Source: a virus
Reading direction: 5' to 3' (one strand)
Length of the DNA: 28,340 bases
Virus record (IMG/VR): IMGVR_UViG_3300040801_003312
Location: 1 to 28,340 of that record
Shown here: positions 1 through 28,340 of the stretch, piece by piece
Layout: every line of letters begins with the position of its first letter
Numbering within the stretch: position 1 is the stretch's first letter
Notes under the pieces: model-generated
What the model was told of the DNA's origin: nothing
The model's database searches: none
What the model saw: only the letters and a program-made list of their open reading frames with translations
Translations under genes and position numbers: made by a program

Positions 1-117
1 AAATTCAAACATTCGGTAATTGTTAATTTATAAATATATTCAAGTTTAGTAATATCATTTTCAGCGAGGGATTTTATTAAAGCATCAACACCATAAATTT
101 CACTAAATTTTTTTTCT
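1..117. repeat. Terminal direct repeat, left copy (circle closure)
   Basis: These 117 bases are identical to 28224-28340. A reading frame, the tail chaperone extension, runs through the repeat without interruption. The repeat is therefore most simply the overlap left when a circular or circularly permuted genome is assembled as a linear contig, not a fixed physical end. Confidence 0.95.
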
Positions 118-191
118 TCTATTGATGTTGATTCGTCTGAATTTGAAAATATTGTTGAATAGTTTCTAAATAATTCATTTTTAGATTTGAT
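1..191 (-). CDS. Tail assembly chaperone, -1 frame extension (upstream part; continues at 28223)
   Basis: This frame is entered from the gene at 119-691 by a -1 shift at the TTA codon at 191-193. It continues past base 1 into 28223 and ends at a TAA at 28163-28165. The extension adds 83 residues, beginning IKSKNELFRNYS, so the fused product would be 250 aa. It overlaps the end of the 0-frame gene, whose TAG is at 119-121. Its core (KKFSEIYGVDALIKSLAEND, then TKLEYIYKLTITE) has the look of T domains in Bacteroidota phages: a Tyr-Gly near the front, an LA-x-x-D-I segment and a charged helical tail. An ATG at the start of this frame (204-202, giving MFFFIKSK) could alternatively start it independently. 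Confidence 0.75.
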   Translation of the reverse strand, partial: MKSKNELFRNYSTIFSNSDESTSIEEKKFSEIYGVDALIKSLAENDITKLEYIYKLTITECLN

Positions 192-691
192 AAAAAAAAA
201 CATACAGATAATGCCTTTTTCATTGTTAATTTTTTCTTAAATATTTCTGATCGATTAATAATTTTTGTCGAATCATATTCTTCAATTTTACTTTTAAATA
301 ATTTTCTTTTCTTTTCTCTAAATAAAATTGCACAAATTATATGTAGATTATCTATAATTTTCTTTTCATTTTTAGTAAAGTTTAATAAATCAACAAAACG
401 ACCAGCCGAATATTTATAAATTTCAGAATCAAATGTATATTTTTTTCCATCAATTTTAAAATCATTTAAATCCTCAAAATCTGCTTCTTTTTCTATTACT
501 GTATTTATTAAAGATAATAAGTATTCAAGACTTTGAATTGAATATTTTTCTAAATTACTTATCTTTGTGAATAACTTAATTAAGTTATATTTATTTTCTT
601 CATAATTATCCTTATATGATTGTAGAAGTTGATACTCTTCTATTGTTAAATCACTTATATTTTTTATTTTAATTTTTTTTATCATACCCAA
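119..691 (-). CDS. Tail assembly chaperone (gpG-like), 0-frame product
   Basis: 190 aa protein of the type that precedes the tape measure gene in Bacteroidota phages. It has a short basic start (MIKKIKIKNISDLTIEEYQ), a helical middle, a characteristic segment YKYSAGRFVDLLNF, then HIICAILFREKK and a C-terminal ALSVCFFLSNLKMNY. These chaperones coat the tape measure protein and help polymerise the tail tube around it. The minor frameshifted form carries a T domain that recruits tube subunits. The start overlaps the terminase stop by 10 bp, which suggests translational coupling. The family call rests on pattern resemblance, reinforced by the slippery site and the in-frame extension. Residues after the shift point (SNLKMNYLETIQQYF and on) belong only to the unshifted form. 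Confidence 0.7.
   Translation of the reverse strand: MGMIKKIKIKNISDLTIEEYQLLQSYKDNYEENKYNLIKLFTKISNLEKYSIQSLEYLLSLINTVIEKEADFEDLNDFKIDGKKYTFDSEIYKYSAGRFVDLLNFTKNEKKIIDNLHIICAILFREKKRKLFKSKIEEYDSTKIINRSEIFKKKLTMKKALSVCFFLSNLKMNYLETIQQYFQIQTNQHQ
191..197 (-). promoter_or_regulatory. Programmed -1 ribosomal frameshift site (U UUU UUA)
   Basis: On the coding strand nine Ts followed by A span 200-191 and read TGT TTT TTT TTA in the 0 frame. The last seven bases, T TTT TTA, form a canonical X XXY YYZ slippery heptamer, the same as that of HIV-1 gag-pol. A -1 slip moves ribosomes into the 83-codon extension. I did not find an obvious strong stem-loop just downstream, so the stimulator is unclear. 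Confidence 0.7.
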
Positions 692-2016
692 TAAGTTAAT
701 TTTTGTGTTTTTTTAAATTCAAAAATCATTTTCATCATAACAGCCTCAGCAACATCTGGAGAATACCCCAGCGATCCTTTAACATCTTTTTTTGGAGTTA
801 TTTGGCTTTTTGAATCTGAAAAAGGGTTATGGTTTTTGAATGAAACTAATTCTTTAAATAATTTTTCTTTAATTTGTTTATCATCAAAAGATAATTTTAA
901 TAAATTCATTCTAAACAATTCTGATAATTTAAACATACATTGACTTTTCAAATTATTAAATTTCTCATTATTTAATGGTGTTGAAGCACTCACAAATCTT
1001 GTTATTGAACTTCTTAATTGATTTTCTAAATAATCACAAACACCAACACCAACACCACTCGCATCAACTACAATTTTACTTGCTTTAATATTATATTGTT
1101 TTTTTATCTTTATAATATTATCAGATAAGGTAATTGTATCATTTGTGTCAAATGTTTTTATATCTAATATTTCTGAACCCCTCCAAATTACAATAACTGA
1201 ATTATCATCACCAGTCGAAGCAACATCAACAGATAGGTAATATTCATTGTCTTTATTTTGTAATTCATTACTAAAACTATTTAAATAATCTTCATATGAA
1301 AATAAATCTAATGATGAATTTGAATAGTCCCAATTACCTAAATATTGTTGTTGATATTTTGCACCAGTTAGCCTTTTTAAACTATTTAAATAAGATAATG
1401 GTAAAAATGGATTGTCCTCCGGGGTGCCCAAAATTACAGATTTATAATTTTCTAATAGATTTGCTTTGTGGGGTGAATAAAAAAGTTCATATAACCAATT
1501 TTTAGCAGGATTTGAAACTAATAATAGTTTAGGAATTAAATTATATTCTTTTAACTTCCAGCGTATTCTTGACTTAACATATTCATAAGCGTCTTTTTCA
1601 ACTTCACCACACTCATCAATACAAGCAAATGTATACTCGGTTGATTTTAGTTCACCCCACTCTGGATCGCTTGGTTTTCTTGCTAATTGTTTCATATTGA
1701 TTACACTACCATTTTTGAAAATTATCTTATTTGATTTAAAATTATAATTTATCAAATGTTCTAAATTTAGATTTTTTACAATTTCTTGGAAAGTTACTAG
1801 TGTAGATTCTGTAATTGAATTTAAAGTTTGTCTACCCCACAAACCTTTTACCCCAGGATATTTAAGACAATATAGTAGTGAAAAAATTGCCAATAGTCTT
1901 GATTTACCTACACCAGCGCTGCCACCAAACATTATTTCCTCGATCCCATTTTCAAAATCTAATAAAACATTTAATGCTTTTTCTTGTAATTCTGTTAATT
2001 GTAAATCAATTTTCAT
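682..2016 (-). CDS. terL: Terminase large subunit
   Basis: 444 aa ATPase and nuclease motor that packages DNA into the prohead. The ATPase half shows Walker A GGSAGVGKS (31-39), Walker B FACIDE (130-135, catalytic E135) and a coupling motif LLLVSNP (164-170). The nuclease half has the RuvC-like LSVDVASTGDD (D264, D270, D271), VVDASG (D318) and SPDVAEA (D421), the expected metal-binding acidic residues. Length is normal for the family. It lies 2 bp after the small unknown gene and downstream of the small terminase. All key residues are present, so the enzyme should be active. The packaging mode (headful or cos) cannot be read directly; the circular assembly fits headful packaging of permuted DNA. 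Confidence 0.96.
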   Translation of the reverse strand: MKIDLQLTELQEKALNVLLDFENGIEEIMFGGSAGVGKSRLLAIFSLLYCLKYPGVKGLWGRQTLNSITESTLVTFQEIVKNLNLEHLINYNFKSNKIIFKNGSVINMKQLARKPSDPEWGELKSTEYTFACIDECGEVEKDAYEYVKSRIRWKLKEYNLIPKLLLVSNPAKNWLYELFYSPHKANLLENYKSVILGTPEDNPFLPLSYLNSLKRLTGAKYQQQYLGNWDYSNSSLDLFSYEDYLNSFSNELQNKDNEYYLSVDVASTGDDNSVIVIWRGSEILDIKTFDTNDTITLSDNIIKIKKQYNIKASKIVVDASGVGVGVCDYLENQLRSSITRFVSASTPLNNEKFNNLKSQCMFKLSELFRMNLLKLSFDDKQIKEKLFKELVSFKNHNPFSDSKSQITPKKDVKGSLGYSPDVAEAVMMKMIFEFKKTQKLTYWV

Positions 2017-7010: not shown

Positions 7011-7087
7011 TTTTATTAATTATTTTTTGTTTATTATTATATATTAAAATTTTTATTTAGTTTTCGCTTTTTTTACATTTTTTTTAC
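7011..7087. repeat. Intergenic repeat with promoter motif, copy 2
   Basis: Near-identical partner of 5627-5698. The minus strand has GCGAAAAC (7060-7067), 16 nt, then TATATA (7038-7043), 28 nt before the ATG at 7010. Confidence 0.6.
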
Positions 7088-7302
7088 ATTTTTTTTTTAA
7101 TTTCATTAATAACTTCATGCCAGACTTCATAACTGACTTCATTCTCGACTTCATCACTGACTTTATTACTGACTTCATTCCTTACTTCATTCCCGACTTC
7201 ATTATCGACTTCATTCCTGACTTCAATCATAACTTCAATCCAAATTTCATACCTTACTTTATCCCATACTTCATTCCCTAAATTTTTACCAAGTGTTTTC
7301 AT
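7084..7302 (-). CDS. Tetrapeptide-repeat protein (x-N/D-E-V)n
   Basis: 72 aa. After MKTLGKNL, residues 9-68 are fifteen consecutive tetrapeptides of the form x-x-E-V (for example GNEV, RNEV, SDEV, ENEV), ending INEI-KKKM. Position 4 is always Val or Ile and position 3 is Glu in all but two units (WDKV, SNKV). At DNA level this is a 12-bp tandem repeat. The fold is unknown; strict 4-residue spacing of a hydrophobic suggests a regular rod or stacked structure, not a globular domain. Repeat-number change would keep the frame. It is the gene directly downstream of non-coding module R1, which suggests the same control as the lipoprotein gene. Function unknown. Confidence 0.6.
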   Translation of the reverse strand: MKTLGKNLGNEVWDKVRYEIWIEVMIEVRNEVDNEVGNEVRNEVSNKVSDEVENEVSYEVWHEVINEIKKKM

Positions 7303-9345: not shown

Positions 9346-9978
9346 TTAAAGAGACTTAATTGCTTCAATAAAGTTATTTCTTGATTTTTGAAGTCTTATT
9401 GAATTTTCAATTTTTTTCTCAAGTTGTTTTAAATATCTGTCTGAAACTTTAAGTTGATTTTTGATTGCTGATTTTTCAAATCCAATTGAAAGTAGATAAA
9501 TAACCCTCTGTCTATTAGTAGTTAATTCTTTATCTATTTTTTCAAGTTTTTTCTCTTCAACTTTTTTTATTTCAATATCATTAACTTTATTAACTTCAAT
9601 TACTTTATCATTTTCAAATTTAAGTTCACCTTTTTTCATTTTTGAACGATACCACCTTACAGAATTTATAGTTGAATTTGTTCTTCTTGCTATTTCTTTA
9701 GTATTAATATTTTGAGATATCAATTTAATAATTCTATATTTTTTTGATACTATTTTTTTAGATGTTGGTTTTTTAGATGTTGGTTTTTTAGATGTTAGTT
9801 TTTTAGATGTTGGTTTTTCTGTTGTTGGTTTTTCTGTTTGATCATTATTCATTTTTGAACGATACCACCTGACAGAATTTACACTTGAATTTGTTTTTTT
9901 TGCAATTGTTTCATCTTTCCAGTTCATTTTGATCATTTTAATGATTTGCTCTTTTTTTGTTGTTTTATTTGTTTTCAT
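9346..9978 (-). CDS. DNA-binding protein with three helix-turn-helix units and a Lys-rich linker
   Basis: 210 aa. Residues 9-43 and 79-114 are copies of the same helix-turn-helix: each has an I-I-K-x-I start, an I-A-K/R-K/R-T-N-S turn and the identical ending NSVRWYRSKM. Residues 154-190 (NRQRVIYLLSIGFEKSAIKN, then VSDRYLKQLEKKIE) form a third, more distant one. The first two are joined by about 30 residues of T-S-K-K-P/L repeats, coded by 15-bp tandem repeats near 9760-9850, resembling the basic tails of histone H1-like proteins. It probably binds DNA at spaced sites as a regulator or architectural protein. It is divergent from the methyltransferase and carries its own terminator, so it may control that intergenic region or the R modules. 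Confidence 0.72.
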   Translation of the reverse strand: MKTNKTTKKEQIIKMIKMNWKDETIAKKTNSSVNSVRWYRSKMNNDQTEKPTTEKPTSKKLTSKKPTSKKPTSKKIVSKKYRIIKLISQNINTKEIARRTNSTINSVRWYRSKMKKGELKFENDKVIEVNKVNDIEIKKVEEKKLEKIDKELTTNRQRVIYLLSIGFEKSAIKNQLKVSDRYLKQLEKKIENSIRLQKSRNNFIEAIKSL

Positions 9979-10116: not shown

Positions 10117-11223
10117 ATGAAACAGAATTTGAAAGTTTTTGAATTTTTTGCTGGTATAGGTGCTCAGAATCAAGCACTTAGAAATATAAATATTGATTAT
10201 GAAATTGTTGGTATATCTGAATGGAATATAAACAGTATAATTGCATATAATTATATAAACAATGATAAAAATTACTTAGAAACATTAAAAAAAGATATAA
10301 TAATAGACAAATTAAAGGATTTTACATTTTCGTCAAATGGAAAAACACCAACAAATCTAAAATATTTTAGTGAAAAAAAATTAAATCTATTATATAATAG
10401 TCATATCTTATCTGAAAATAAAGGATCAATAATAGATTTAAAAGAAAGTGATATACCTTATTCAGATTTATGGACTTATTCATTTCCTTGTCAAGACTTA
10501 TCATCAATGGGTAAACAAAAAGGAATGATAAATGGACAATCATCATCGTTATTAAATCATATTCTAAGGTTATTGAATGAAAAAAAAGAAAATAATAAAC
10601 AATTACCTAATTTTTTATTGATGGAAAATGTTACATCAATAAAAAATAAAAGAAATATAAAAGATTTTAATAATTTAAAAGAAAAATTAAAATCTTTTGG
10701 ATATTATAATTATGATTTTGAATTGACTGGTTATAAACATGGAATCCCACAAACACGAAAAAGAACATTTATGGTGTCGAGTTTAGATAAATTAAACATA
10801 GATTTTTCTGAAAAAGATTTAAAAAATACAAATTTATGTATAAAAGATTTTCTTGATATTGATAAATCAAAATACAAAATAGATAAAAAGAAATATAGAA
10901 ATTTAGATGTTAAATATTTAGAAAAATATAAGATTAATAATCTAATTTATTATAAATCTGATTTATATAGTTTTAATACAATGAAAAAAATATTTGATAT
11001 AAAAGGATATTCTCCAACACTATTAGCAGGATCAAAATATTCATATTTTGATAATGAAATGATAAGGAATTTGACAGGAAAAGAATCTTTAAAATTAATG
11101 GGATTTTCAAGAAATTTAGAAAAATTAGATAATTTATTTAGTTGTAATGAATTAAATAAAATGGCCGGTAATTCTATTATTGTTAATAAATTAGAGTTTA
11201 TATTTAAAAAATTATTTACTTAA
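10117..11223 (+). CDS. DNA (cytosine-5) methyltransferase, orphan
   Basis: 368 aa enzyme that methylates cytosine at C5 using S-adenosylmethionine. Motif I is FEFFAGIGAQ (8-17), motif IV SFPCQDLS with catalytic Cys125, motif VI LMENVTS (168-174) and motif VIII PQTRKR (211-216). The C-terminal motifs IX/X are LTGKESLKLMGFS and NKMAGNSIIVNKLE. The variable region between VIII and IX (about 220-320) sets the target, which cannot be predicted here. The stretch between motifs I and IV is longer than in compact enzymes. No restriction endonuclease gene is adjacent, so it probably shields phage DNA from host restriction. It is the only large plus-strand gene, read apart from the virion block, and its stop overlaps that of the facing gene by 4 bp. 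Confidence 0.93.
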   Translation: MKQNLKVFEFFAGIGAQNQALRNINIDYEIVGISEWNINSIIAYNYINNDKNYLETLKKDIIIDKLKDFTFSSNGKTPTNLKYFSEKKLNLLYNSHILSENKGSIIDLKESDIPYSDLWTYSFPCQDLSSMGKQKGMINGQSSSLLNHILRLLNEKKENNKQLPNFLLMENVTSIKNKRNIKDFNNLKEKLKSFGYYNYDFELTGYKHGIPQTRKRTFMVSSLDKLNIDFSEKDLKNTNLCIKDFLDIDKSKYKIDKKKYRNLDVKYLEKYKINNLIYYKSDLYSFNTMKKIFDIKGYSPTLLAGSKYSYFDNEMIRNLTGKESLKLMGFSRNLEKLDNLFSCNELNKMAGNSIIVNKLEFIFKKLFT

Positions 11224-11468
11224 AACATTTCATCAATTTCATCATTTTTAAATTCATCCAAAATTTCAACACTGGTTTCTAAATTATTTAAATTCAAATA
11301 TTTTAAATCTAAATTATAAACAAACATTGTATATTTAGTATTGTTTTTATTTGAAATAATTGTAGAATAACAACTTGATTTACAATTACTTTCATTTTCT
11401 TTTCTTTTTTGTAATAGAATATTATTTATAAATTCTAATTCTGACTTATTATTTGAAATTATCCACAT
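11220..11468 (-). CDS. Unknown protein, 82 aa
   Basis: Last gene of the virion block. It has two cysteines (ESNCKSSCYSTI), a short aromatic strand (KYTMFVYNLDLKYL) and an acidic C-terminus (EILDEFKNDEIDEMF). Its start overlaps the LamG gene by 10 bp and its stop overlaps the methyltransferase stop. No family recognised. Position at the end of the tail and fibre genes is where lysis genes often sit, but it has no signal peptide or hydrolase motif. Confidence 0.6.
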   Translation of the reverse strand: MWIISNNKSELEFINNILLQKRKENESNCKSSCYSTIISNKNNTKYTMFVYNLDLKYLNLNNLETSVEILDEFKNDEIDEMF

Positions 11469-12603: not shown

Positions 12604-14727
12604 TTATACTAATTTTAAAAATCCAGATCCATCAACGCTTACTCTTGTTAATGTGCCACCTCCAGCATCACCCAATAAAATAAATAAATTTGTCGATCCT
12701 GCTAGAGCTGTATCACCTACCATTAAACAATCTTTTCTATTTACATCAGATGTACCATTTCCCACAACGAGCGTAGCTGTTTGATTATCATTCCAACAAC
12801 CAAGTCGTGTTCGATTTGGTTGTGATGTTCTTAAGCCAATACCAGCCAACATATTATAACTATTATTATTTGTATTTGATTCTCCTACCAATAAAGATTT
12901 ATCAGCATTATTTGTATTTAATTTTCCACCAAGAATTGAATTATGTCCATTATTATAATTATTTTGTCCACCAATAATTGAATTATATTTAAGATTTTGA
13001 TTATTTTGTCCTAAAATATTTGAATAATTTCCAGTATTTGTATTTTGATATCCACCTAAAATTGAATAATTAGAATTATTTTCATTACTAGCACCTCCAA
13101 TAATTGAACCATCACCAGCAATTTTATTTTGATTACTTAAACCACAAATTATTGAACTATCTCCAGAATTCTGATTAATAAAATTAGCTGAGTTTAATTC
13201 ACCACCAATGACCATCGAGGCTTTTCCATAATTTTGATTACCTTTACCACCAGTAATTGAATTATGTTCAGTATTAGTATTACTTTCTCCAAAAATTATT
13301 GAATTTTCTATTGTTGCACCACTTTCAACATATAAATCCTCAAGTATATGTAAATTCTTACCAAACCACCCACCACCATTTGCAGCAAATGAAAAATCAG
13401 AACCATTTGTTGTTGCTCTTGATGAGTTTACACATAATACTTTACCACCAAAAAAAATCGCACCATCACCACCATCACAACTTAGTTCGATTAAATTATT
13501 TGCTATTATATTTGTTCTATAAGCATCAATACTAATTGAAGCTAATGAATCTGTATTTTTTATATAAGATTCATTCCCATTTAAATTTAATATATTTTCA
13601 GAATAATTATATGTAAAATTAGAACTTCCAGTCAAAGTTCCAACAGAATTAAATATTATTTGTGTATTATCAGAATTTTCAAAAACTTGATAAGTTGTAG
13701 AACTTAAAGAACTTATATTAGAAATATTTGTATTAATTAAGTCTAAATTATTATAAGTTGTTGAACTTAAAGAACTTATATTAGAAATATTTGTATTAAT
13801 TAAGTCTAAATTATTATAAGTTGTAGAACTTAAAGAACTTATATTATCTAAATTTATATATGTTTGAGAACTAACAGATTGTAATTCAGAATCATAAGCA
13901 ATATTTTCTAATAATGATGATCCTGAATTTATTTGCCATCTATCAACGTCATCATTCCAATAAAGTTTTGCATTGGTTTCTAAACCTCGGTCTATCTCAA
14001 TTCCACTGTTTATAAGTGATACACCACTTCCAGTTTCTCCACTATTCAATAAAATTATATTATCTTTAATGTCTAAATTTTCAACATTTGCTGAAATAGT
14101 TGAACCAGATACATATAAATTACCAGTTATATTCACATTACCTGTAGTTTTTATATTATTTGTATATAAAGTATTATTATCACTACCGGATATATTTGAA
14201 CCTATTATTGCAGAATTATATGCAGTTAGTTGATTATTTTGTCCAATTACTAAACTATAAAAAGATGATAATGTATTTGATAATCCAGCAACTAAATTAC
14301 CATCATTGTATACTTGATTACCAATACCAACTATTAAATTACAATCTGCATATTGTTTTGCTTGATTACCAGCACCAGCAACTATATTATTATGATCATT
14401 AACTGAATTTGAATAACCAACTACTAAATTATTATTACCATTACAACCATTATTATTTCCAAATAAAATTGATTTTGTTGATCCAGATATATTATTTGAA
14501 GTTAAAATTGCGTTATCGTTATTATCTAATTTAAATAAACTATAAACTTCATTATCAACACCTACATATATTTTTTTATTATATTCATCAACAACAATTT
14601 CACCCGAATAAATTTCTTCAGGTCCCCAAGAGTTTGTAATGTGATCACCAACACCAATTGTAGGATTAAAATCAGATGTTTCATTAATTAATTGAACCAT
14701 CCTATCATTTCTAATGTTTAATGCCAT
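12604..14727 (-). CDS. Tail fibre / appendage protein with YadA-like repeats
   Basis: 707 aa. Two blocks of 13-16-residue repeats, at about 80-180 and 475-635, have the pattern NSIIGGxNNxNxxxN, as in the beta-roll heads of trimeric autotransporters and phage fibres. Between them is a section typical of phage fibres (TTGNVNITGNLYVSG, IKDNIILLNSGETGSG, YWNDDVDRWQINSG) and a stretch of identical 21-residue repeats (about 297-345) that probably forms a trimeric coiled shaft. The C-terminus (GDAGGGTLTRVSVDGSGFLK) may be a trimerisation or tip region. It is likely a homotrimeric host-binding or decoration fibre. It starts a transcription unit, with a TATATA motif about 25 nt upstream. Confidence 0.8.
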   Translation of the reverse strand: MALNIRNDRMVQLINETSDFNPTIGVGDHITNSWGPEEIYSGEIVVDEYNKKIYVGVDNEVYSLFKLDNNDNAILTSNNISGSTKSILFGNNNGCNGNNNLVVGYSNSVNDHNNIVAGAGNQAKQYADCNLIVGIGNQVYNDGNLVAGLSNTLSSFYSLVIGQNNQLTAYNSAIIGSNISGSDNNTLYTNNIKTTGNVNITGNLYVSGSTISANVENLDIKDNIILLNSGETGSGVSLINSGIEIDRGLETNAKLYWNDDVDRWQINSGSSLLENIAYDSELQSVSSQTYINLDNISSLSSTTYNNLDLINTNISNISSLSSTTYNNLDLINTNISNISSLSSTTYQVFENSDNTQIIFNSVGTLTGSSNFTYNYSENILNLNGNESYIKNTDSLASISIDAYRTNIIANNLIELSCDGGDGAIFFGGKVLCVNSSRATTNGSDFSFAANGGGWFGKNLHILEDLYVESGATIENSIIFGESNTNTEHNSITGGKGNQNYGKASMVIGGELNSANFINQNSGDSSIICGLSNQNKIAGDGSIIGGASNENNSNYSILGGYQNTNTGNYSNILGQNNQNLKYNSIIGGQNNYNNGHNSILGGKLNTNNADKSLLVGESNTNNNSYNMLAGIGLRTSQPNRTRLGCWNDNQTATLVVGNGTSDVNRKDCLMVGDTALAGSTNLFILLGDAGGGTLTRVSVDGSGFLKLV
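13690..13846. repeat. 63-bp tandem repeat in the fibre gene
   Basis: Units 13690-13752 and 13753-13815 differ at a single base, and a third partial unit runs to about 13846. 63 bp is 21 codons, so copy number can change without loss of frame. They encode the shaft repeats with SSLSSTTYNNLDL. Confidence 0.88.
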
Positions 14728-14744: not shown

Positions 14745-14767
14745 TTAATTATATATAAATTTTTTTT
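14745..14767 (-). promoter_or_regulatory. Candidate promoter for the fibre-LamG unit
   Basis: The minus strand has AAATTTATATATAATT, with TATATA about 25 nt before the ATG at 14727. Confidence 0.35.
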
Positions 14768-17207
14768 AATAAAAATTTGCTTTTATAATATTTTCATTAT
14801 CATATTCACTAATTATAATATTTTCATTATCATATTCACTAATTATAATATCAATTTCTTCTAATATAATTGGATTGAATTCATATCTAATATTATATTT
14901 TTCAGGTTGAATTATTTTAATTAATTCAACTTTAGTTATATAATTATTTAAATCATAATCAATTATTTTATTAATTATAAACCAACCATCCGAAACTTTA
15001 TTTCCAAAATTTATATAGATTTTATCATTTAATTTAGTTTTAAAAATTGTTTGAGGTGTTAAATAAAAATCTGCAATTATAATTCTTGCATCACTATTTT
15101 TATATTGTTCCAACAAAGTATTATAATAATTATATAAATTATTAAATTTATAATAAATAGTAGGATAATTATTATTTTTATTAAATAAATCTCCACAATC
15201 AGGACTATAATTTAAATCAATATCATAATTATCAAATGAATTAGATATTGCTGTAGTATAATGTGTAAATTTTTCATTATCATTAAATTTCATTTCTTCA
15301 GTAGATAATGTTTCTGAATTTAATTGTGTTGTATAAAGATGTAATAATCTTAATGCAGCATTACACTTTGACTTTCTTAAAATATTACCAAGTTTATCAC
15401 CTTCAACACCATTTTCATTTTCCCAACCAATTTTTGAAACCGGATAATATCTTGTTATACTTGTATTATCAATAAATGTAATTGTTTGATAATTTTTATT
15501 TATATTATTTGATATATCATTAAAATTTGCAGGTGATATATAAGGTGTTGATGTAAATATACTTTCATATTTTTCAACATTATTTGTATATTTATTTGAT
15601 GTTTCTTTAAATAATTCACCAAAATTTTTAAGATTTGTGTCCCTATATAATTTGTTATGCCAATCTTCACCATTTTTTAATTTAAAATTTATTAAACTCG
15701 AATCAGTTATATTTGTTTGTATTTCTATTTTTGAATTATTTACTAAAATATCTGTCCAATTTTGTGAATCTCCTTCAAGATAATATTCTTCTCTATTTTT
15801 TATTATATAATGATTTTTATTGAAATTATTTTGATATACATAAAGATTAAATAATTTAAAAATATCTCTCAAAAAATCTGATTGTTTCACATTTTCTGGG
15901 AGTATATCATTCATTGTCAATATGTTATCTGAATTCCAAACAACACCAGTAGTTTCTTTATCATAAACCTTGAAATTAAAATCATCAATTTCTAAATCTA
16001 ATTCAGATCCATGAACAATTGAAAATACTATTATATTATCTTTTTCTAAATTTTCTGTTAATGTAATTGTCTCATCGTAAGTGTTTACTGTAGCTGAAAT
16101 ATCTACAATTCGTTTATATGATAATAATTCACCACCCTGTGCATATATCCCAACATATAGATCAGCCAATCCACTAATCCTTGTAAATGATACATTTATA
16201 TCTATTTTAGAAAAATCTTTTCTTAAAACATAATTTTCTATACCGCTTTGAGTTGATGAATATACATTTGATCCCAATCCACCGATATATAACTCTAAAT
16301 TATTTGATATACTATTATATAAATCTGTATATATATTCAAACTACCACCGAAGGCCAAAAATGGATATTTAGCCTTCAATATAAACCTTCCATCAATATC
16401 AGCATCTCCTATTAAATTTGTAGTATTACTATAATTTAATGAACTCTTTGAGTAAGGAACCACTAATTTTTTAAAAAAATCTTGTTCAAATAATTCACAT
16501 TCATAAGTATAATTTTGATTCTCAAAAATTTTATCTATAATAGATTTAACAAAAAATGCAGGTTTAAATAATTCTGATTTTTCTAAAACATTCATTTGTT
16601 GCATTTGTGAATTTAATGAATATGTGCTTGTTAAGTCAATTTTATTTATAAAATTTCCATAATCAATAAATGGATAAATATATGGTTTTACATCTGAATT
16701 ATAATTATTATCTGATATTGTTTGAAAATTATATTTATGATTTCCTTCATTATTCCATTGGATTTCATTTAATTTTAAATCTTTCAAATCAATAAAAATC
16801 GATTTAATAAAAGATATTAAATTACATTCATAAAATATTTCATCATTTTCAATAATTATTTCATTTAATTTTATAAATCCTCTAAAAATTTCAAATGTAT
16901 TTTCATATAAAACGGCTTCAATTTTTTTATTTAACCAAATATTTTGTTTAATATTTATATTAAATAATTTTTTAAATATCTTTCTATTATTTTGTGAATC
17001 TGCAATTTTTATTGTTTTTGAAAATGATGTTTTTTTATCAAAAGGATTTCTAATATCTGATATAGAATAATTTAACATAATATCAATATTATTATCCAAG
17101 TCAATTAACATATAATCATTATTATAAATATTTGTAATTCCTGTTAATGAATCACTAACATCTATATTATTATAATCACCTACATTTACATATAATTGTG
17201 TATTCAT
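14766..17207 (-). CDS. Tail tip / baseplate hub protein
   Basis: 813 aa structural protein. The N-terminal part carries a signature I recognise from tail proteins of Bacteroidota phages: SISDIRNPFDKKTSFSKTIK, then FKKLFNINI, NKKIEAVLYENTFEIFRGFI and a bounded beta domain. This resembles the hub proteins that close the tail tube and hold fibres. The large middle is beta-rich with no catalytic motif that I can see. The last 25 residues contain a duplicated IISEYDNENI, from a 30-bp tandem repeat. It starts 2 bp before the stop-to-start junction with the gene at 17210-18793, so they are co-translated. No lysozyme or peptidase domain is visible. Confidence 0.75.
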   Translation of the reverse strand: MNTQLYVNVGDYNNIDVSDSLTGITNIYNNDYMLIDLDNNIDIMLNYSISDIRNPFDKKTSFSKTIKIADSQNNRKIFKKLFNINIKQNIWLNKKIEAVLYENTFEIFRGFIKLNEIIIENDEIFYECNLISFIKSIFIDLKDLKLNEIQWNNEGNHKYNFQTISDNNYNSDVKPYIYPFIDYGNFINKIDLTSTYSLNSQMQQMNVLEKSELFKPAFFVKSIIDKIFENQNYTYECELFEQDFFKKLVVPYSKSSLNYSNTTNLIGDADIDGRFILKAKYPFLAFGGSLNIYTDLYNSISNNLELYIGGLGSNVYSSTQSGIENYVLRKDFSKIDINVSFTRISGLADLYVGIYAQGGELLSYKRIVDISATVNTYDETITLTENLEKDNIIVFSIVHGSELDLEIDDFNFKVYDKETTGVVWNSDNILTMNDILPENVKQSDFLRDIFKLFNLYVYQNNFNKNHYIIKNREEYYLEGDSQNWTDILVNNSKIEIQTNITDSSLINFKLKNGEDWHNKLYRDTNLKNFGELFKETSNKYTNNVEKYESIFTSTPYISPANFNDISNNINKNYQTITFIDNTSITRYYPVSKIGWENENGVEGDKLGNILRKSKCNAALRLLHLYTTQLNSETLSTEEMKFNDNEKFTHYTTAISNSFDNYDIDLNYSPDCGDLFNKNNNYPTIYYKFNNLYNYYNTLLEQYKNSDARIIIADFYLTPQTIFKTKLNDKIYINFGNKVSDGWFIINKIIDYDLNNYITKVELIKIIQPEKYNIRYEFNPIILEEIDIIISEYDNENIIISEYDNENIIKANFY
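14783..14842. repeat. 30-bp tandem repeat at the end of the hub gene
   Basis: Two identical 30-bp units (14783-14812 and 14813-14842), 10 codons each, encode ISEYDNENII twice at the C-terminus. Confidence 0.85.
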
Positions 17208-17209
17208 AT

Positions 17210-18793
17210 TTAGAATTTTTTATATTTTTTTCTAATATTTTTCATATATTTCATTTGATAATTTTTTAAATTATCTTTTATATCTGAATATTTATCTAAT
17301 TTATTTGTAGATATTATAATAGGTATTTGAATATTATTTTCAAATAAAATAACATTTGTAGATTTTAATAAATCCTTCATTAAAATATTATAACTATTAT
17401 CTATATAATCACTTGATAATATATAATTTTGTTCAATTTCTTTATTATTTGTATATAAATTTTTATCATTATAATTTCTTATTAATTTTCCTGTGTTTGT
17501 ATTTATATCATATTTAGTTTTTTCAAAATAATCTTTATTTACTTCAAATTCGTCCAGTATATTCCCAAAAAATTTAAAAGATTCAACACCTCCAAATCTA
17601 TTATTCCATATAATTTCTTTTTTTTCATTATAATTACATCTATTATCTTTTATAAATGTTAATTTTTCTGATGTTTGTATATAATTCTCATCTGACGTAT
17701 AAAAATAAAATCTTTTAATATCTGTAAAAATGTTTTTATTCACTTTTATTTCAATAACTTCAAAACTATTTATAAAAATTGTTCCAGTATTACCAGAACC
17801 TTGTATATAAATATTAGAATAATTATCATCTGCTATTATAGTTAAATATTGTTCACCATTTATTTTTTCTAATTCAACAGATTGATCCAAATCTCCAATA
17901 ATACTAGTAAGCCCTGAGTTAAATCCAACCCAAATTGTATCAATATCATCAATTATATCTAAATTTATTTTAAATGTGTATTCAACATCTTTATTAATAT
18001 TGAAAATAGAACCATATGATCTTGAGAAATTTGTTGAATTTGTTTCAAATAAATTTTCATTTAATAATATTGTATTACCACTATTTGTCCATTCGTCTAA
18101 TTGCCATATTTGTGAAATAGTTGGTGTTTGTGATTCAATTAAATCTTTTCTTAAATTAATATCAAGCCTAATTTTATTTTTATCACCAAAATTTTCATTT
18201 TCATAAAAATTTCTATATTTATTATTATTATTATCAATATATTCTACAACAAAAAAATTATTCTTAACATCTAAATTAATGGATGTATCTCCACTACTAT
18301 TTAACATACTTATATAATTATTAGATGTATTATCAAAATATCTTTTATCTCGGTAATCAGTTAAAAATTTTGATGTATTTGAACTTAATTCATAATCTTT
18401 ATAATCAAATTCAGATAATTCATAATTTTCCTCACCATTTATAATTATAAAACTATCTGAATATAAATTATCATATTCATTATTATTATAAAATTCTATT
18501 ATATATATAATACCTTTTTTATATGAATAATTATGATAATTAAAAACTGATGTATCTATATAATTATCAATATCAAATAATTCTGATGGATTTAATATTA
18601 AAAATGAATTTGGATTAGGTAACTGAGACAACTGATTTACGATTGCTGTTGTCTCACCAGAATTAAATTGGTATATATTTACTAAAAATTTAAAATCATT
18701 ATATAGTGCAGCCTTATCTGTGTTTACTGTTATATAATTATCGGAATGTAATAATGTTATATCATTTATTTGTTGATAAATATTTAATGCCAT
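17210..18793 (-). CDS. Distal tail / tail tip structural protein
   Basis: 527 aa. It starts MALNIYQQINDITLLHSDNY, then YNDFKFLVNIYQ, an opening seen in Bacteroidota phage tail proteins that precede the hub gene. The rest is beta-rich and very high in Asn, Asp and Tyr, with a central segment (INKDVEYTFKINLDIIDDID) resembling a carbohydrate-binding-type jelly roll. The C-terminus is strongly basic (KYMKNIRKKYKKF). It likely bridges the tail tube and tip. Assignment rests on order (after tail completion genes, before the hub) and general resemblance. Confidence 0.65.
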   Translation of the reverse strand: MALNIYQQINDITLLHSDNYITVNTDKAALYNDFKFLVNIYQFNSGETTAIVNQLSQLPNPNSFLILNPSELFDIDNYIDTSVFNYHNYSYKKGIIYIIEFYNNNEYDNLYSDSFIIINGEENYELSEFDYKDYELSSNTSKFLTDYRDKRYFDNTSNNYISMLNSSGDTSINLDVKNNFFVVEYIDNNNNKYRNFYENENFGDKNKIRLDINLRKDLIESQTPTISQIWQLDEWTNSGNTILLNENLFETNSTNFSRSYGSIFNINKDVEYTFKINLDIIDDIDTIWVGFNSGLTSIIGDLDQSVELEKINGEQYLTIIADDNYSNIYIQGSGNTGTIFINSFEVIEIKVNKNIFTDIKRFYFYTSDENYIQTSEKLTFIKDNRCNYNEKKEIIWNNRFGGVESFKFFGNILDEFEVNKDYFEKTKYDINTNTGKLIRNYNDKNLYTNNKEIEQNYILSSDYIDNSYNILMKDLLKSTNVILFENNIQIPIIISTNKLDKYSDIKDNLKNYQMKYMKNIRKKYKKF

Positions 18794-18806
18794 AATTATT
18801 TTTTTT

Positions 18807-18829
18807 TATTTATATATAAAAAATTTTTA
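18807..18829 (-). promoter_or_regulatory. Candidate promoter for the tail tip unit
   Basis: The minus strand has AAAAATTTTTTATATATAAA, with TATATA at 18811-18816, about 20 nt before the ATG at 18793. Confidence 0.35.
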
Positions 18830-19270
18830 TAAATTTCTTACATTTTCTTCTCCGAATTTTTCTTCAAACATTTTTTTAATATCTTTTGCTAATGATTTTT
18901 CCATTATTTCTTTTAATTCTGTATCTTTATAAATTGGATTTAAAAAATTTGTAGGTGGTATTCCCAAGTCCCCTATTTTTATGCGAACTGGCCAAAGCAT
19001 AGATTCAGGTAAACCCATATAATTTAACCATTCTGAAATAACATCTTCAGGTGGCATTTTTCCAGGGCCTCTACCGGTGTTAATCCATTTTGCTGAATCT
19101 GTTAATATATATACTATTTGTGGAAAACCATCTTTATTATTACTTATCTCAAAATCAATGTCTCTATATGTATTTGTATGTGTTTTATTTTTTTCTTTTA
19201 GAATTTCCCTCATTTTTTCGAGTTTTTTATTTGCATGAAATTCTAATTCACGTCTACTATATTCATACAT
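18827..19270 (-). CDS. Tail completion / head-tail joining protein (HK97 gp10-like)
   Basis: 147 aa. The signature segment DSAKWINTGRGPGKMPPEDV, followed by ISEWLNYMGLPE and KIGDLGIPPTNFLNPIYKD, matches the family with a conserved GRxPGKMPP loop and an I-G-G/I-P-P-x-x-F-L end. The family includes virion morphogenesis proteins of the HK97 gp10 type, which sit between the neck and the tail tube. It lies 6 bp after the tail terminator gene in the expected order. Confidence 0.78.
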   Translation of the reverse strand: MYEYSRRELEFHANKKLEKMREILKEKNKTHTNTYRDIDFEISNNKDGFPQIVYILTDSAKWINTGRGPGKMPPEDVISEWLNYMGLPESMLWPVRIKIGDLGIPPTNFLNPIYKDTELKEIMEKSLAKDIKKMFEEKFGEENVRNL

Positions 19271-19276
19271 AATTTT

Positions 19277-19729
19277 TTATTCATTTTTTGGAATTAAACA
19301 ACTATTATTTAATGATTTAACTTCAATAGATATATCAGAATAATAACCTGAAACAACATCTTTAAATTGTTCTGTAAATGGAATTAAATCAAAAGATTTG
19401 TTGAACCATAGTTCATAATTTTCTTCTTTTCTTGCTAATAATTCAGATTTAATGTCTTCAAATATTAATATAATATCATTTTGAATATCAATTAAATTAT
19501 TTTTTTCTTTATCCAATAAGTCCATAATGTAAATTTTGAAATTTACTTTATTTATGTTTTCACCCAAATTGATTTTACCGGGTTGCAATAAACAAAAAAA
19601 ATAATTTAAGTCTTTTTCAGTTAAATTATAAGGATATCCATAATAATAGTGAGATTCACCTAATTGTGAATGTTCAAATATAATTGTTTCTAATCTATTT
19701 TTAACCAATTCTTTATATGTCATTACCAT
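19277..19729 (-). CDS. Tail terminator-like protein
   Basis: 150 aa. It has an alternating helix and strand layout with NKVNFKIYIMDLLDKEKNNL, IDIQNDIILIFEDIKSELLA and LIPFTEQFKDVVSGYYSDIS, ending in NNSCLIPKNE. This arrangement and the final Cys-x-x-Pro are familiar from neck proteins of Bacteroidota phages that cap the tail tube. Its start overlaps the DUF1360-like gene by 7 bp. The call depends on gene order and overall pattern, not on a catalytic motif. Confidence 0.65.
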   Translation of the reverse strand: MVMTYKELVKNRLETIIFEHSQLGESHYYYGYPYNLTEKDLNYFFCLLQPGKINLGENINKVNFKIYIMDLLDKEKNNLIDIQNDIILIFEDIKSELLARKEENYELWFNKSFDLIPFTEQFKDVVSGYYSDISIEVKSLNNSCLIPKNE

Positions 19730-25477: not shown

Positions 25478-27523
25478 TTATAATAAACTATCTGATTCTA
25501 TTATTTTAACTTTCCTTTCAGTTCTATTGAATTCACCTTGAGAAATTACAACAGGTATTTGTTTAATGGCATTTGCAATATCACTTGGGTCAATTATGTT
25601 TGTATTTATTGAACCTGATTCCCCAGCTATTCCACCATCAGCAAATCTAACACCACCACCAACTTCATTTATCTGGCTTAAAATTGGTTTAAACATTGCC
25701 GTTGATTTTGCATTTATTACTGATTCTCCATTACTCAAACTTGCTGGTATTGAATCACTAAAACCATTTCCAAGTCCTTTTATCATTCCACCTTTTGCAA
25801 ATTTTTGTCTTGAAATAGTTGCTATTTGTATAGCACCCATTGCAGCAGCAGCAGCAGCCATAATTGGACCAAGTGGCATTGAATATTGTGCTAAGTTTTT
25901 TGATACTGATAGAGCTGTGTCAATAACTGCTTGTATAATTGCCATTTTTTTTTCTTTTTCAGCATATTTCTTTTTTATTTGTTCCTTTTTCTTTTCATTA
26001 TCCCCAGCCATATCAAGTTCTTGTTGCATTTGTAATTGATTAAAACTTGATAATGTTCCAATTATTGCAGTTGCACCCTGAACAAAGTTTTCTTGATTCT
26101 TTAACCTTTCATCTTGTAATTTTTTATCATCCTCAAGTATTTTATCATTTTTATTTTGGTTAATTTCGATCATTCCCTCATTAAATATTTGTTCTTGTTC
26201 TTGTTTTTGTAAATTAAAATTTTCCTGTGTTTCTAAATAAAGATTATTTTTTTCTTCTTCAGATATTTCCATTAATTCAATTTCTTTCAAACGTCTTTCT
26301 TCTTCTTGTTCTAATCTTTTTAAATTTGCATCCCTTTCAATTTCTAATATTCTTTGTTGTTTTTCAAATTCATTCTCAATGTCTTTAGTATTTAATAGTT
26401 CTCTTTTTTGTTGATTTTCAATTATTAAATCCTGTGCTTCATTCGCAGCGTCTTGATTTAATTTTGCAATTTCTTCTTTTGTTCTTTTGTCTTCTTCTGT
26501 TAATCTATTTTCAGTCTTTTTTAATTTAATCATAGTCATAGTAGATTGTTCAGAAATTTGGGCAATCTTCGCTTCCTGTTCAGCAATAGCCCTCAAATCT
26601 TCATCTTTAGACGAAGAAATTTCAGCCTCAGCTTTCATATTTTCTAATCGATCTTGTTCAATTTTAAGTCTTTCGTCTAAATTCTTTTTCTCTAATTCAG
26701 CAGCATTTCTTGACGCTTCAAGCCTTTCGTCTAAAGTATTATTTGTGTCTTCGGCAATATCTCGATATTGAGCAATTTTTTTATTACGCTCTGCTTCGAT
26801 TGGAATTAAAGATGTTTCTGCCCTGTAAATTCTTTGATATTCAGCTTCAACAGCAGCAGCTGCCTTTCCAGCATCTTTTAAATTTTTAATCAATTTGCTT
26901 TCTTTGACCTTATTTTCAACTTTATCTATTCCATTTTCTACACCTGTCCACATTTGAATATTTGCATTTGCAACATCTTTTAAGCCTTGTTTCCAATCTT
27001 TTGTAAACAATTTAACAATACCTTTTCCCATTACACCGATGGCTTTAAATCGATTTATAATGTTATCCATTAACATTTTACCTATATCTTTGATCGCCTG
27101 CTTTGGGTCATCCCACATAGCCTTAAAACGATTTCCAAACTCTGTTATAAATGTAGTATTTTCTTTAAAATTTTTGAAAAAATCTACAACTGAATCTACA
27201 GCTACAGCTATAACAGCATTAACAGAAGCCATAACTTTTTTAAATTCGTTGGCAAAGGTAGCATTACTCATTAGAGCATCACTAATCTTTTTTATTAGTC
27301 CAATGATTGCTGTTATAATTACCAAAGGCCCCGCCTTTAATACATTTCCAACTGCCTGGAAACCTTTCTTCATCACACCTGTGCCTTTTCCTACATCTTT
27401 AGTAGATTTATCAACATTTTTTGTTGATTTTTCAACTTTTTCAACTTCTTTTTCAACTTTACTAATGTTTGAAACTGCGCCACTCGAATCAACATTCATC
27501 TTTATATTAACCTCTTCTGCCAT
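25478..27523 (-). CDS. Tail tape measure protein
   Basis: 681 aa protein that fixes tail length and leaves the tail at infection. It has a polar N-terminal coil (SKVEKEVEKVEKSTKNVDKS), hydrophobic segments (LKAGPLVIITAIIGLIKKIS, about 62-81), a long Glu/Lys/Gln coiled coil (about 230-500) and an Ala-rich membrane-like segment (PLGPIMAAAAAAMGAIQIAT). It ends with a C-terminal FAKGGMIKGLGNGFSDSIPA, then SNGESVIN, a common tape measure ending. At about 0.15 nm per residue the tail would be near 100 nm. No lysozyme or peptidase motif is visible. The start is at 27523, 18 bp inside the small gene at 27502-27639. Confidence 0.88.
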   Translation of the reverse strand: MAEEVNIKMNVDSSGAVSNISKVEKEVEKVEKSTKNVDKSTKDVGKGTGVMKKGFQAVGNVLKAGPLVIITAIIGLIKKISDALMSNATFANEFKKVMASVNAVIAVAVDSVVDFFKNFKENTTFITEFGNRFKAMWDDPKQAIKDIGKMLMDNIINRFKAIGVMGKGIVKLFTKDWKQGLKDVANANIQMWTGVENGIDKVENKVKESKLIKNLKDAGKAAAAVEAEYQRIYRAETSLIPIEAERNKKIAQYRDIAEDTNNTLDERLEASRNAAELEKKNLDERLKIEQDRLENMKAEAEISSSKDEDLRAIAEQEAKIAQISEQSTMTMIKLKKTENRLTEEDKRTKEEIAKLNQDAANEAQDLIIENQQKRELLNTKDIENEFEKQQRILEIERDANLKRLEQEEERRLKEIELMEISEEEKNNLYLETQENFNLQKQEQEQIFNEGMIEINQNKNDKILEDDKKLQDERLKNQENFVQGATAIIGTLSSFNQLQMQQELDMAGDNEKKKEQIKKKYAEKEKKMAIIQAVIDTALSVSKNLAQYSMPLGPIMAAAAAAMGAIQIATISRQKFAKGGMIKGLGNGFSDSIPASLSNGESVINAKSTAMFKPILSQINEVGGGVRFADGGIAGESGSINTNIIDPSDIANAIKQIPVVISQGEFNRTERKVKIIESDSLL

Positions 27524-27639
27524 TTTTTATTTTTGTATTTTTTTAATTCTTTATCAAAAAACTTTTTTTCAATTATTATATCATTTAATTTGAATAAAGA
27601 AAAGATAATTACTTTATTTAGTTCATCAATATATTTCAT
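27502..27639 (-). CDS. Short overlapping ORF before the tape measure gene
   Basis: 45 codons, beginning MKYIDELNKVIIFSLFKLND and ending KNKKWQKRLI. It overlaps the end of the gene at 27626-27880 by 14 bp (its ATG lies in the last codons of that gene) and the tape measure start by 22 bp. Without it a gap of about 100 bp would remain between the two genes. Amphipathic and basic; no family recognised. It could be a small chaperone-like or coupling protein, or not translated at all. Confidence 0.45.
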   Translation of the reverse strand: MKYIDELNKVIIFSLFKLNDIIIEKKFFDKELKKYKNKKWQKRLI

Positions 27640-27880
27640 ATTTAATTATTTTTATTTTTCCTTTTTTTACTGACTTTTTTTTAATTTCAAAATAATCATT
27701 TATTAAGTTATCAATTTTTTCTTCATTAAAAGAAAATAAATTAGTATGTTTGATAATTATAGAATTATCATTTATATTATATATTAATTGTATATTTAAA
27801 TTTCTAAATTTGTAAGGAATCCTAAATATCTCAATCAGTTTAGAAAACTCAGTTTCAAAATTTTCAAATAATTTGAACAT
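27626..27880 (-). CDS. Unknown protein, 84 aa, before the tape measure gene
   Basis: Mixed alpha/beta, basic C-terminus (KKKSVKKGKIKIIKYEIY), ending in TGA. No family recognised. It is the first gene of the tape measure unit on the minus strand and has a TATATA motif about 21-28 nt upstream. Its place between the chaperone and the tape measure suggests a role in tail assembly, by position only. Confidence 0.6.
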   Translation of the reverse strand: MFKLFENFETEFSKLIEIFRIPYKFRNLNIQLIYNINDNSIIIKHTNLFSFNEEKIDNLINDYFEIKKKSVKKGKIKIIKYEIY

Positions 27881-28146: not shown

Positions 28147-28177
28147 AGCAGATAAATTTTATTTATCTGCTTTTTTT
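28147..28177 (+). terminator. Terminator for the plus-strand small gene
   Basis: AGCAGATAAA (28147-28156) and TTTATCTGCT (28162-28171) form a 10-bp stem with a 5-nt loop, followed by seven Ts. On the minus strand the stem overlaps the stop codon of the tail chaperone extension. Confidence 0.8.
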
Positions 28178-28340
28178 CATTCTACTCTCAATGACCTTAT
28201 CTCTATTAATTCTATATTGTATAAAATTCAAACATTCGGTAATTGTTAATTTATAAATATATTCAAGTTTAGTAATATCATTTTCAGCGAGGGATTTTAT
28301 TAAAGCATCAACACCATAAATTTCACTAAATTTTTTTTCT
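28163..28340 (-). CDS. Tail assembly chaperone, -1 frame extension (C-terminal part)
   Basis: Continuation of the frameshifted chaperone frame after the circle junction, ending at TAA 28163-28165 with residues ESRMKKSR. Bases 28224-28340 duplicate 1-117, so this frame is seen twice in the window. The arms of the plus-strand terminator hairpin at 28147-28171 overlap the stop codon, so the two opposing units abut tightly here. No ORF can be called here on the window as cut, because the frame has no start of its own downstream of the junction; it only makes sense once the sequence is circularised. Confidence 0.72.
   Translation of the reverse strand, partial: EKKFSEIYGVDALIKSLAENDITKLEYIYKLTITECLNFIQYRINRDKVIESRMKKSR
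28224..28340. repeat. Terminal direct repeat, right copy (circle closure)
   Basis: Exact copy of bases 1-117. Removing it leaves 28,223 unique bases. A length of 117 also matches a k-mer size used by common metagenome assemblers, which fits an assembly overlap; that last point is inference. Confidence 0.95.

Follow-up and report, generated by a model that had tools for sequence, protein, structure and literature searches.

A conserved two-frame gene beside terL that probably encodes a divergent G/GT-type tail assembly chaperone in a low-G+C phage genome

Genome closure and gene content

The window, by which we mean the whole stretch of DNA analysed here, is a 28,340-bp virus record with a G+C content of 22.6%, and T runs are common in it owing to this composition. 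Positions 1-117 are identical to 28224-28340, and this exact 117-bp identity of both ends implies that the molecule closes to a circle of 28,223 bp, as an earlier note on this DNA had claimed. Exact end repeats also occur in other relatives (99, 123 and 127 bp) and resemble the overlap that an assembler leaves when a genome is circular or permuted. A 5,274-bp contig of another record (IMGVR_UViG_3300040791_000008) encodes proteins 100% identical to those of the window from the tape measure through the portal, and on this protein identity the virus seems to be present in a second data set.

On the minus strand, directly after the gene for the terminase large subunit (terL), lies a gene that is open in two successive frames and is split in the window by the contig ends (Table 1). 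Its zero-frame ORF can also be opened from a TTG at 691, as in the gene at 119-691 of the earlier note, but the ATG at 685 is the more likely start, giving 188 aa for the zero-frame product and 248 aa, instead of the proposed 250 aa, for a fusion with the -1 frame. The slip region reads TGT TTT TTT TTA TCA in the zero frame (202-188) and includes a run of nine T's (192-200, minus strand). Past the slip the -1 frame is open for 83-84 codons, crossing base 1 into 28223 and ending at a stop at 28163, and translation thus agrees with the 83 additional codons reported before. The U UUU UUA heptamer previously singled out is likewise present (197-191, minus strand), but what relatives conserve is the overlapping U UUU UUU at 200-194.

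Table 1. Features of the two-frame gene and its neighbours in the window
Feature	Position	Strand	Evidence
Zero-frame gene (G-like, 188 aa)	119..685	-	ORF list; homologues in >200 viral contigs
Conserved in-phase heptamer U UUU UUU	194..200	-	222/224 homologues, in runs of 9-11 T
Heptamer U UUU UUA of the earlier note	191..197	-	Sequence; shares four bases with the conserved U UUU UUU
-1 extension, first part (T-like domain)	1..190	-	Translation; aligns with relatives; leaves the linear record at base 1
-1 extension, remainder and stop	28163..28223	-	Made contiguous with base 1 by the end repeat, whose copy runs on to 28340
Terminase large subunit (terL)	682..2016	-	Pfam Terminase_3, E 5e-18; phrog_2, E 5e-34
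Tape-measure protein	25478..27523	-	phrog_3336 (tail length tape measure), E 1e-14
Small ORF (84 aa)	27626..27880	-	ORF list; between the extension and the tape-measure gene; no convincing family

The combination of a slip site with a long -1 frame is not due to chance in this T-rich sequence. In-phase TTTTTTN heptamers number 19 in the window's genes; all reach a -1 stop within 18 codons save two overlapping ones in the gene described here, and only those two open a long -1 frame. The run at 192-200 is also the sole T run of at least nine on the coding strand within any minus-strand gene. A comparably long -1 opening follows an AAAAAAT near 11459, where it runs into the next, overlapping gene.

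Elsewhere in the window, an ORF of repeated NEV/xEV units (7084-7302) has an open ORF antisense to it. In the protein encoded at 9346-9978 the motif TNSxNSVRWYRSKM recurs in two near-copies, judged by eye to be probably a duplicated helix-turn-helix unit, and the only sizeable plus-strand gene (10117-11223) reads, again by eye, as a cytosine-C5 DNA methyltransferase. Repeats like those of trimeric adhesin heads are found at 12604-14727, which by inspection probably encodes a tail fibre.

Conservation of the slip site and of the -1 frame

As a direct query, the window fusion had no match in PHROGs, Pfam, phage records or viral contigs, and homologues were reached only through terL-retrieved contigs and family alignments. 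The family alignment yielded 80 loci and three further subgroups added more, leaving 224 IMG/VR homologues after removal of duplicates. With tblastn, residues ~3-166 and ~160-239 of the fusion aligned as separate segments, the frame changing by -1 at the slip site between them, in five contigs (L012, L019, L042, L071 and L074), and a similar pair of segments was found in two more (L034 and L045). Of the homologues from the first round, 109 of 110 kept the slip site; of the 224 non-redundant homologues, 222 had U UUU UUU in phase within a run of at least nine T's. The runs are mostly of nine T's (as in L392), otherwise of 10 or 11, and never of seven or eight. The two exceptions are L164, in which ten T's give in-frame read-through, and L352, the sole member with six T's, which is cut by the locus end and lacks the FF motif.

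Nearly all of the 222 homologues that keep the site also have an open -1 extension. Among the first 110, it reaches 27-72 codons beyond the zero-frame stop (a range that leaves out L133 and L194, with a contig edge or shifted stop, the open end of the window, and the fused L164), with 74-99 aa following the slip. The extension can be aligned along its whole length in relatives (F-x-x-KWGWY...NGD...ECLTWLSY...D), and in the window the corresponding ...ECLN|FIQY... straddles the join of base 1 and 28223, with both sides aligning to relatives. Because this conserved segment spans it, the join is supported by homology as well as by the end repeat, in keeping with the earlier note's joining of 1-117 to 28223. 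In the -1 frame past the zero-frame stop, differences at codon positions 1, 2 and 3 were 0.13, 0.07 and 0.30 across 213 pairs; as these pairs share ancestry, the rates describe the pattern and do not amount to a test on independent observations. The pattern is that of a coding gene and indicates that the -1 extension is evolving under protein-level selection. A lack of conservation of heptamer and -1 frame among relatives had been named in the earlier note as an observation that would overturn the two-frame proposal, and the counts of 109/110 and 222/224 instead favour the proposal: with more than 200 relatives sharing the same arrangement, we regard the two-frame gene as real.

The arrangement extends to cultured phages. 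Nonlabens (Persicivirga) phage P12024L has a homologue directly after terL (gp40; E 4.5e-24 with the family profile), with nine T's, U UUU UUU in phase and 55 open codons of the -1 frame beyond the stop. In place after terL, in the T9 run and in the open -1 frame, gp40-gp41 of P12024L/S thus resemble the window gene, although sequence similarity is distant and the P12024L record, which enters gp40 and gp41 as two separate hypothetical proteins, annotates no frameshift. A distant relationship also links gp10 of Flavobacterium phage 6H (E 8e-6), but its -1 frame is closed across the zero-frame end and no frameshift is proposed for it. Two matches turned up in bacterial genomes, on metagenome-bin contigs of 29 and 17 kb that we judge uninformative about the host.

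A homopolymer such as T9 invites the alternative that a single 250-aa ORF has been broken by a homopolymer error or a recent mutation, whether an indel or gene decay. The ten T's of L164 (ORF to 806) do give an in-frame product of 268 aa, and three BFVD single chains of fusion length (A0A6J5N0W0, A0A516L611 and A0A516L5A8; 258-267 aa) match the whole fusion model. However, the near-identical twin of L164 (L136, pieces 95-99% identical) has T9, as does the cultured P12024L, and the shifted arrangement is common to 222/224 homologues from many separate assemblies. An indel error was rejected on account of this conservation, and we consider a broken single ORF very improbable indeed. The T10 of L164 may be an indel or else a fused allele that occurs naturally; together with the BFVD chains, it suggests that in certain relatives no recoding may be needed for the long form.

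Gene order and probable function as a tail assembly chaperone

The tape-measure gene, whose product matches the tape-measure C termini of several phages by tblastn, lies downstream of the two-frame gene in the window with one small ORF between, so that the position before the tape-measure gene, which the earlier note gives for long-tailed phages in general, holds in the window; the gene also precedes the tape-measure gene in L012. terL is the upstream neighbour in the window and in relatives alike. In most relatives examined, the gene adjoins terL and is followed by neck genes, with the tape-measure gene several kb on; in L034, L062, L068 and L069, the next gene has its homologue at window 19277-19729, with several kb more before the tape-measure gene (for L034 and L068, on the assumption that the contig closes to a circle). 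By these comparisons of gene order, the gene stays by terL while the neck/tail block moves, unlike the textbook order. The neck/tail block that follows the frameshift gene in several relatives is found elsewhere in the window, at 14766-19729, a displacement indicative of modular rearrangement.

Translational frameshifting of -1 in G/GT genes is widely conserved across long-tailed phages (PMC5009743), and the window gene was compared with known families. A PHROG of unknown function (phrog_32199) matched 16 of 18 family members, whereas matches to recognised chaperone families were weak: Pfam Phage_TAC_7 in two of 18 (best E 0.005) and phrog_166, which P2 gpE matches at 4e-7, in five of 18 (best E 0.005). 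No match above the family threshold for tail chaperones was obtained in Pfam, PHROG or PDB, and the window protein itself matched none of the Pfam Phage_TAC families. This shortfall lowers the case for membership of TAC_7, but not that for a tail-chaperone-like function. With hhalign, there was no significant match to single HK97, P2, lambda or Mu proteins, and a six-member Mu gp41 alignment gave E 0.02 over a short common motif. The -1 extension matched phrog_38404 (function unknown) alone in Pfam and PHROGs.

Structure prediction likewise gave a weak link to tail chaperones. The AlphaFold model of the G-like protein (pLDDT 90.5) had no match below E 1 in a Foldseek search of PDB; of the PDB chains re-aligned to it, the HK97 tail assembly chaperone (2ob9) scored highest, though at a low Z of 2.6 over 82 residues. 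The fused model, made from L164, matched a predicted structure annotated as a tail assembly chaperone (A0A8S5V8Z8, E 0.007); its re-alignment returned FERM-domain-type entries near Z 2, with 2ob9 absent.

Among known systems, P2 gpE/gpE+E' (PF10109 Phage_TAC_7, phrog_103/phrog_166) resembles the window gene in its -1 extension past the zero-frame stop (50 codons in P2), its all-T slippery heptamer, its place before the tape-measure gene and a weak profile overlap with the window family. It differs in its site (T TTT TTG, with six T's) and in size (gpE has 91 aa against about 188-230 here), and the profile match of the window family to the P2 sequence is not significant. The two-product -1 layout with a tape-measure gene downstream is likewise found in lambda G/GT and HK97 gp13/gp14, the latter with the weak fold match noted above for gp13, but these share no sequence similarity with the window gene, use another slip site and occupy the standard place between the major tail protein and the tape measure.

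The constancy of terL as neighbour while tail modules move, together with the lack of a significant tail-chaperone profile match, would also suit a conserved recoded structural gene of another kind, such as a head-tail or packaging factor. We consider this improbable: -1 recoding in a phage structural module is the hallmark of tail chaperones (PMC5009743), the weak matches that exist point to TAC_7/phrog_166 and HK97 gp13, and in the window and L012 the gene stands just before the tape-measure gene. Since the weak profile and fold matches coincide with a two-frame layout and a downstream tape-measure gene, a tail assembly chaperone is the best reading of architecture, position and matches taken together. 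On these sequence-based grounds, the gene is probably a recoded, divergent G/GT tail assembly chaperone gene with two predicted products, and the G/GT-type interpretation of the earlier note gains support from the conserved site, the selected -1 frame and the tape-measure gene downstream.

As such, most messages would be read in one frame to give the 188-aa G-like protein, while a minority would shift one base back at the nine-T run to give the 248-aa G-T fusion, its T-like domain of ~84 aa coming from the -1 frame. If the pair acts as in lambda, the tape-measure protein would be coated by the G part and tail-tube subunits brought in by the T part, and a low ratio of long to short product would matter for assembly.

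Ribosomal frameshifting or transcriptional slippage

The frame change could be made by the ribosome, which is the default assumption, or by RNA polymerase, and the site has the form expected for either: the in-phase X XXY YYZ heptamer of -1 ribosomal frameshifting is present as U UUU UUU in 222/224 homologues, and the stretch of nine or more A or T expected where transcriptional slippage changes the frame is present as 9-11 T in 222/224. For polymerase slippage, stuttering on T9 would leave part of the mRNAs with U10 (or U7), and translation of these would enter the -1 frame. Transcriptional slippage has been associated with runs of Tn with n>8 (PMC3711429) and has been described as efficient in vivo where nine As or Ts follow one another (PMC5009743), so that nine T's correspond to the reported threshold; E. 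coli ribosomes, by contrast, shift poorly on U_UUU_UUU relative to A_AAA_AAG (PMC5009743). Slippage genes of the type of Thermus thermophilus dnaX and Shigella mxiE likewise change frame at a homopolymer of at least nine A or T (PMC3711429, PMC5009743), but they are not phage tail genes, and slippage in the window gene is putative.

Polymerase slippage is a serious rival because conservation extends beyond the heptamer to the T run, which is kept in three codon registers. Runs of at least nine T's are kept in 222/224 homologues, none being reduced to seven or eight even though an in-phase seven would suit the ribosome, and the two codons that flank FF are complementary in their T content: T occupies position 2 of the preceding codon (V, L or F) where the following codon begins with one T or with none, and never otherwise. 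Stimulators were sought without success, the 60 nt downstream showing no sign of a stem-loop (71 sequences, mean z 0.05) and a Shine-Dalgarno-like motif upstream being present in 4/71. Against this, any nine-T run also holds an in-phase U UUU UUU and would serve ribosomal shifting too, the two main registers largely correspond to two clades, so that their complementarity may reflect few events, the two proteins themselves dictate some of the flanking T's, and the heptamer of P2, which may be a relative, has six T's. To our knowledge, there is no proven case of polymerase slippage in a G/GT gene. On balance, tandem tRNA slippage of the ribosome on U UUU UUU appears somewhat likelier, with polymerase slippage a tenable but less probable route. 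The wider proposal, that polymerase slippage on at least nine T's, and not ribosomal frameshifting, sets the G:GT ratio in a large tailed-phage clade that lacks annotation, is put forward more tentatively still.

Implications for the phage family

Identification as a chaperone would assign a likely role to a protein that is widespread but annotated as hypothetical (phrog_32199 and relatives), and whose -1 extension has been overlooked by annotation even in complete cultured genomes such as that of P12024L. If polymerase slippage were indeed the route, this would, as far as we know, be its first case for this widespread gene pair. With T9 strictly conserved in several codon registers, the gene lends itself well to distinguishing ribosomal from polymerase slippage in the control of a virion assembly ratio.
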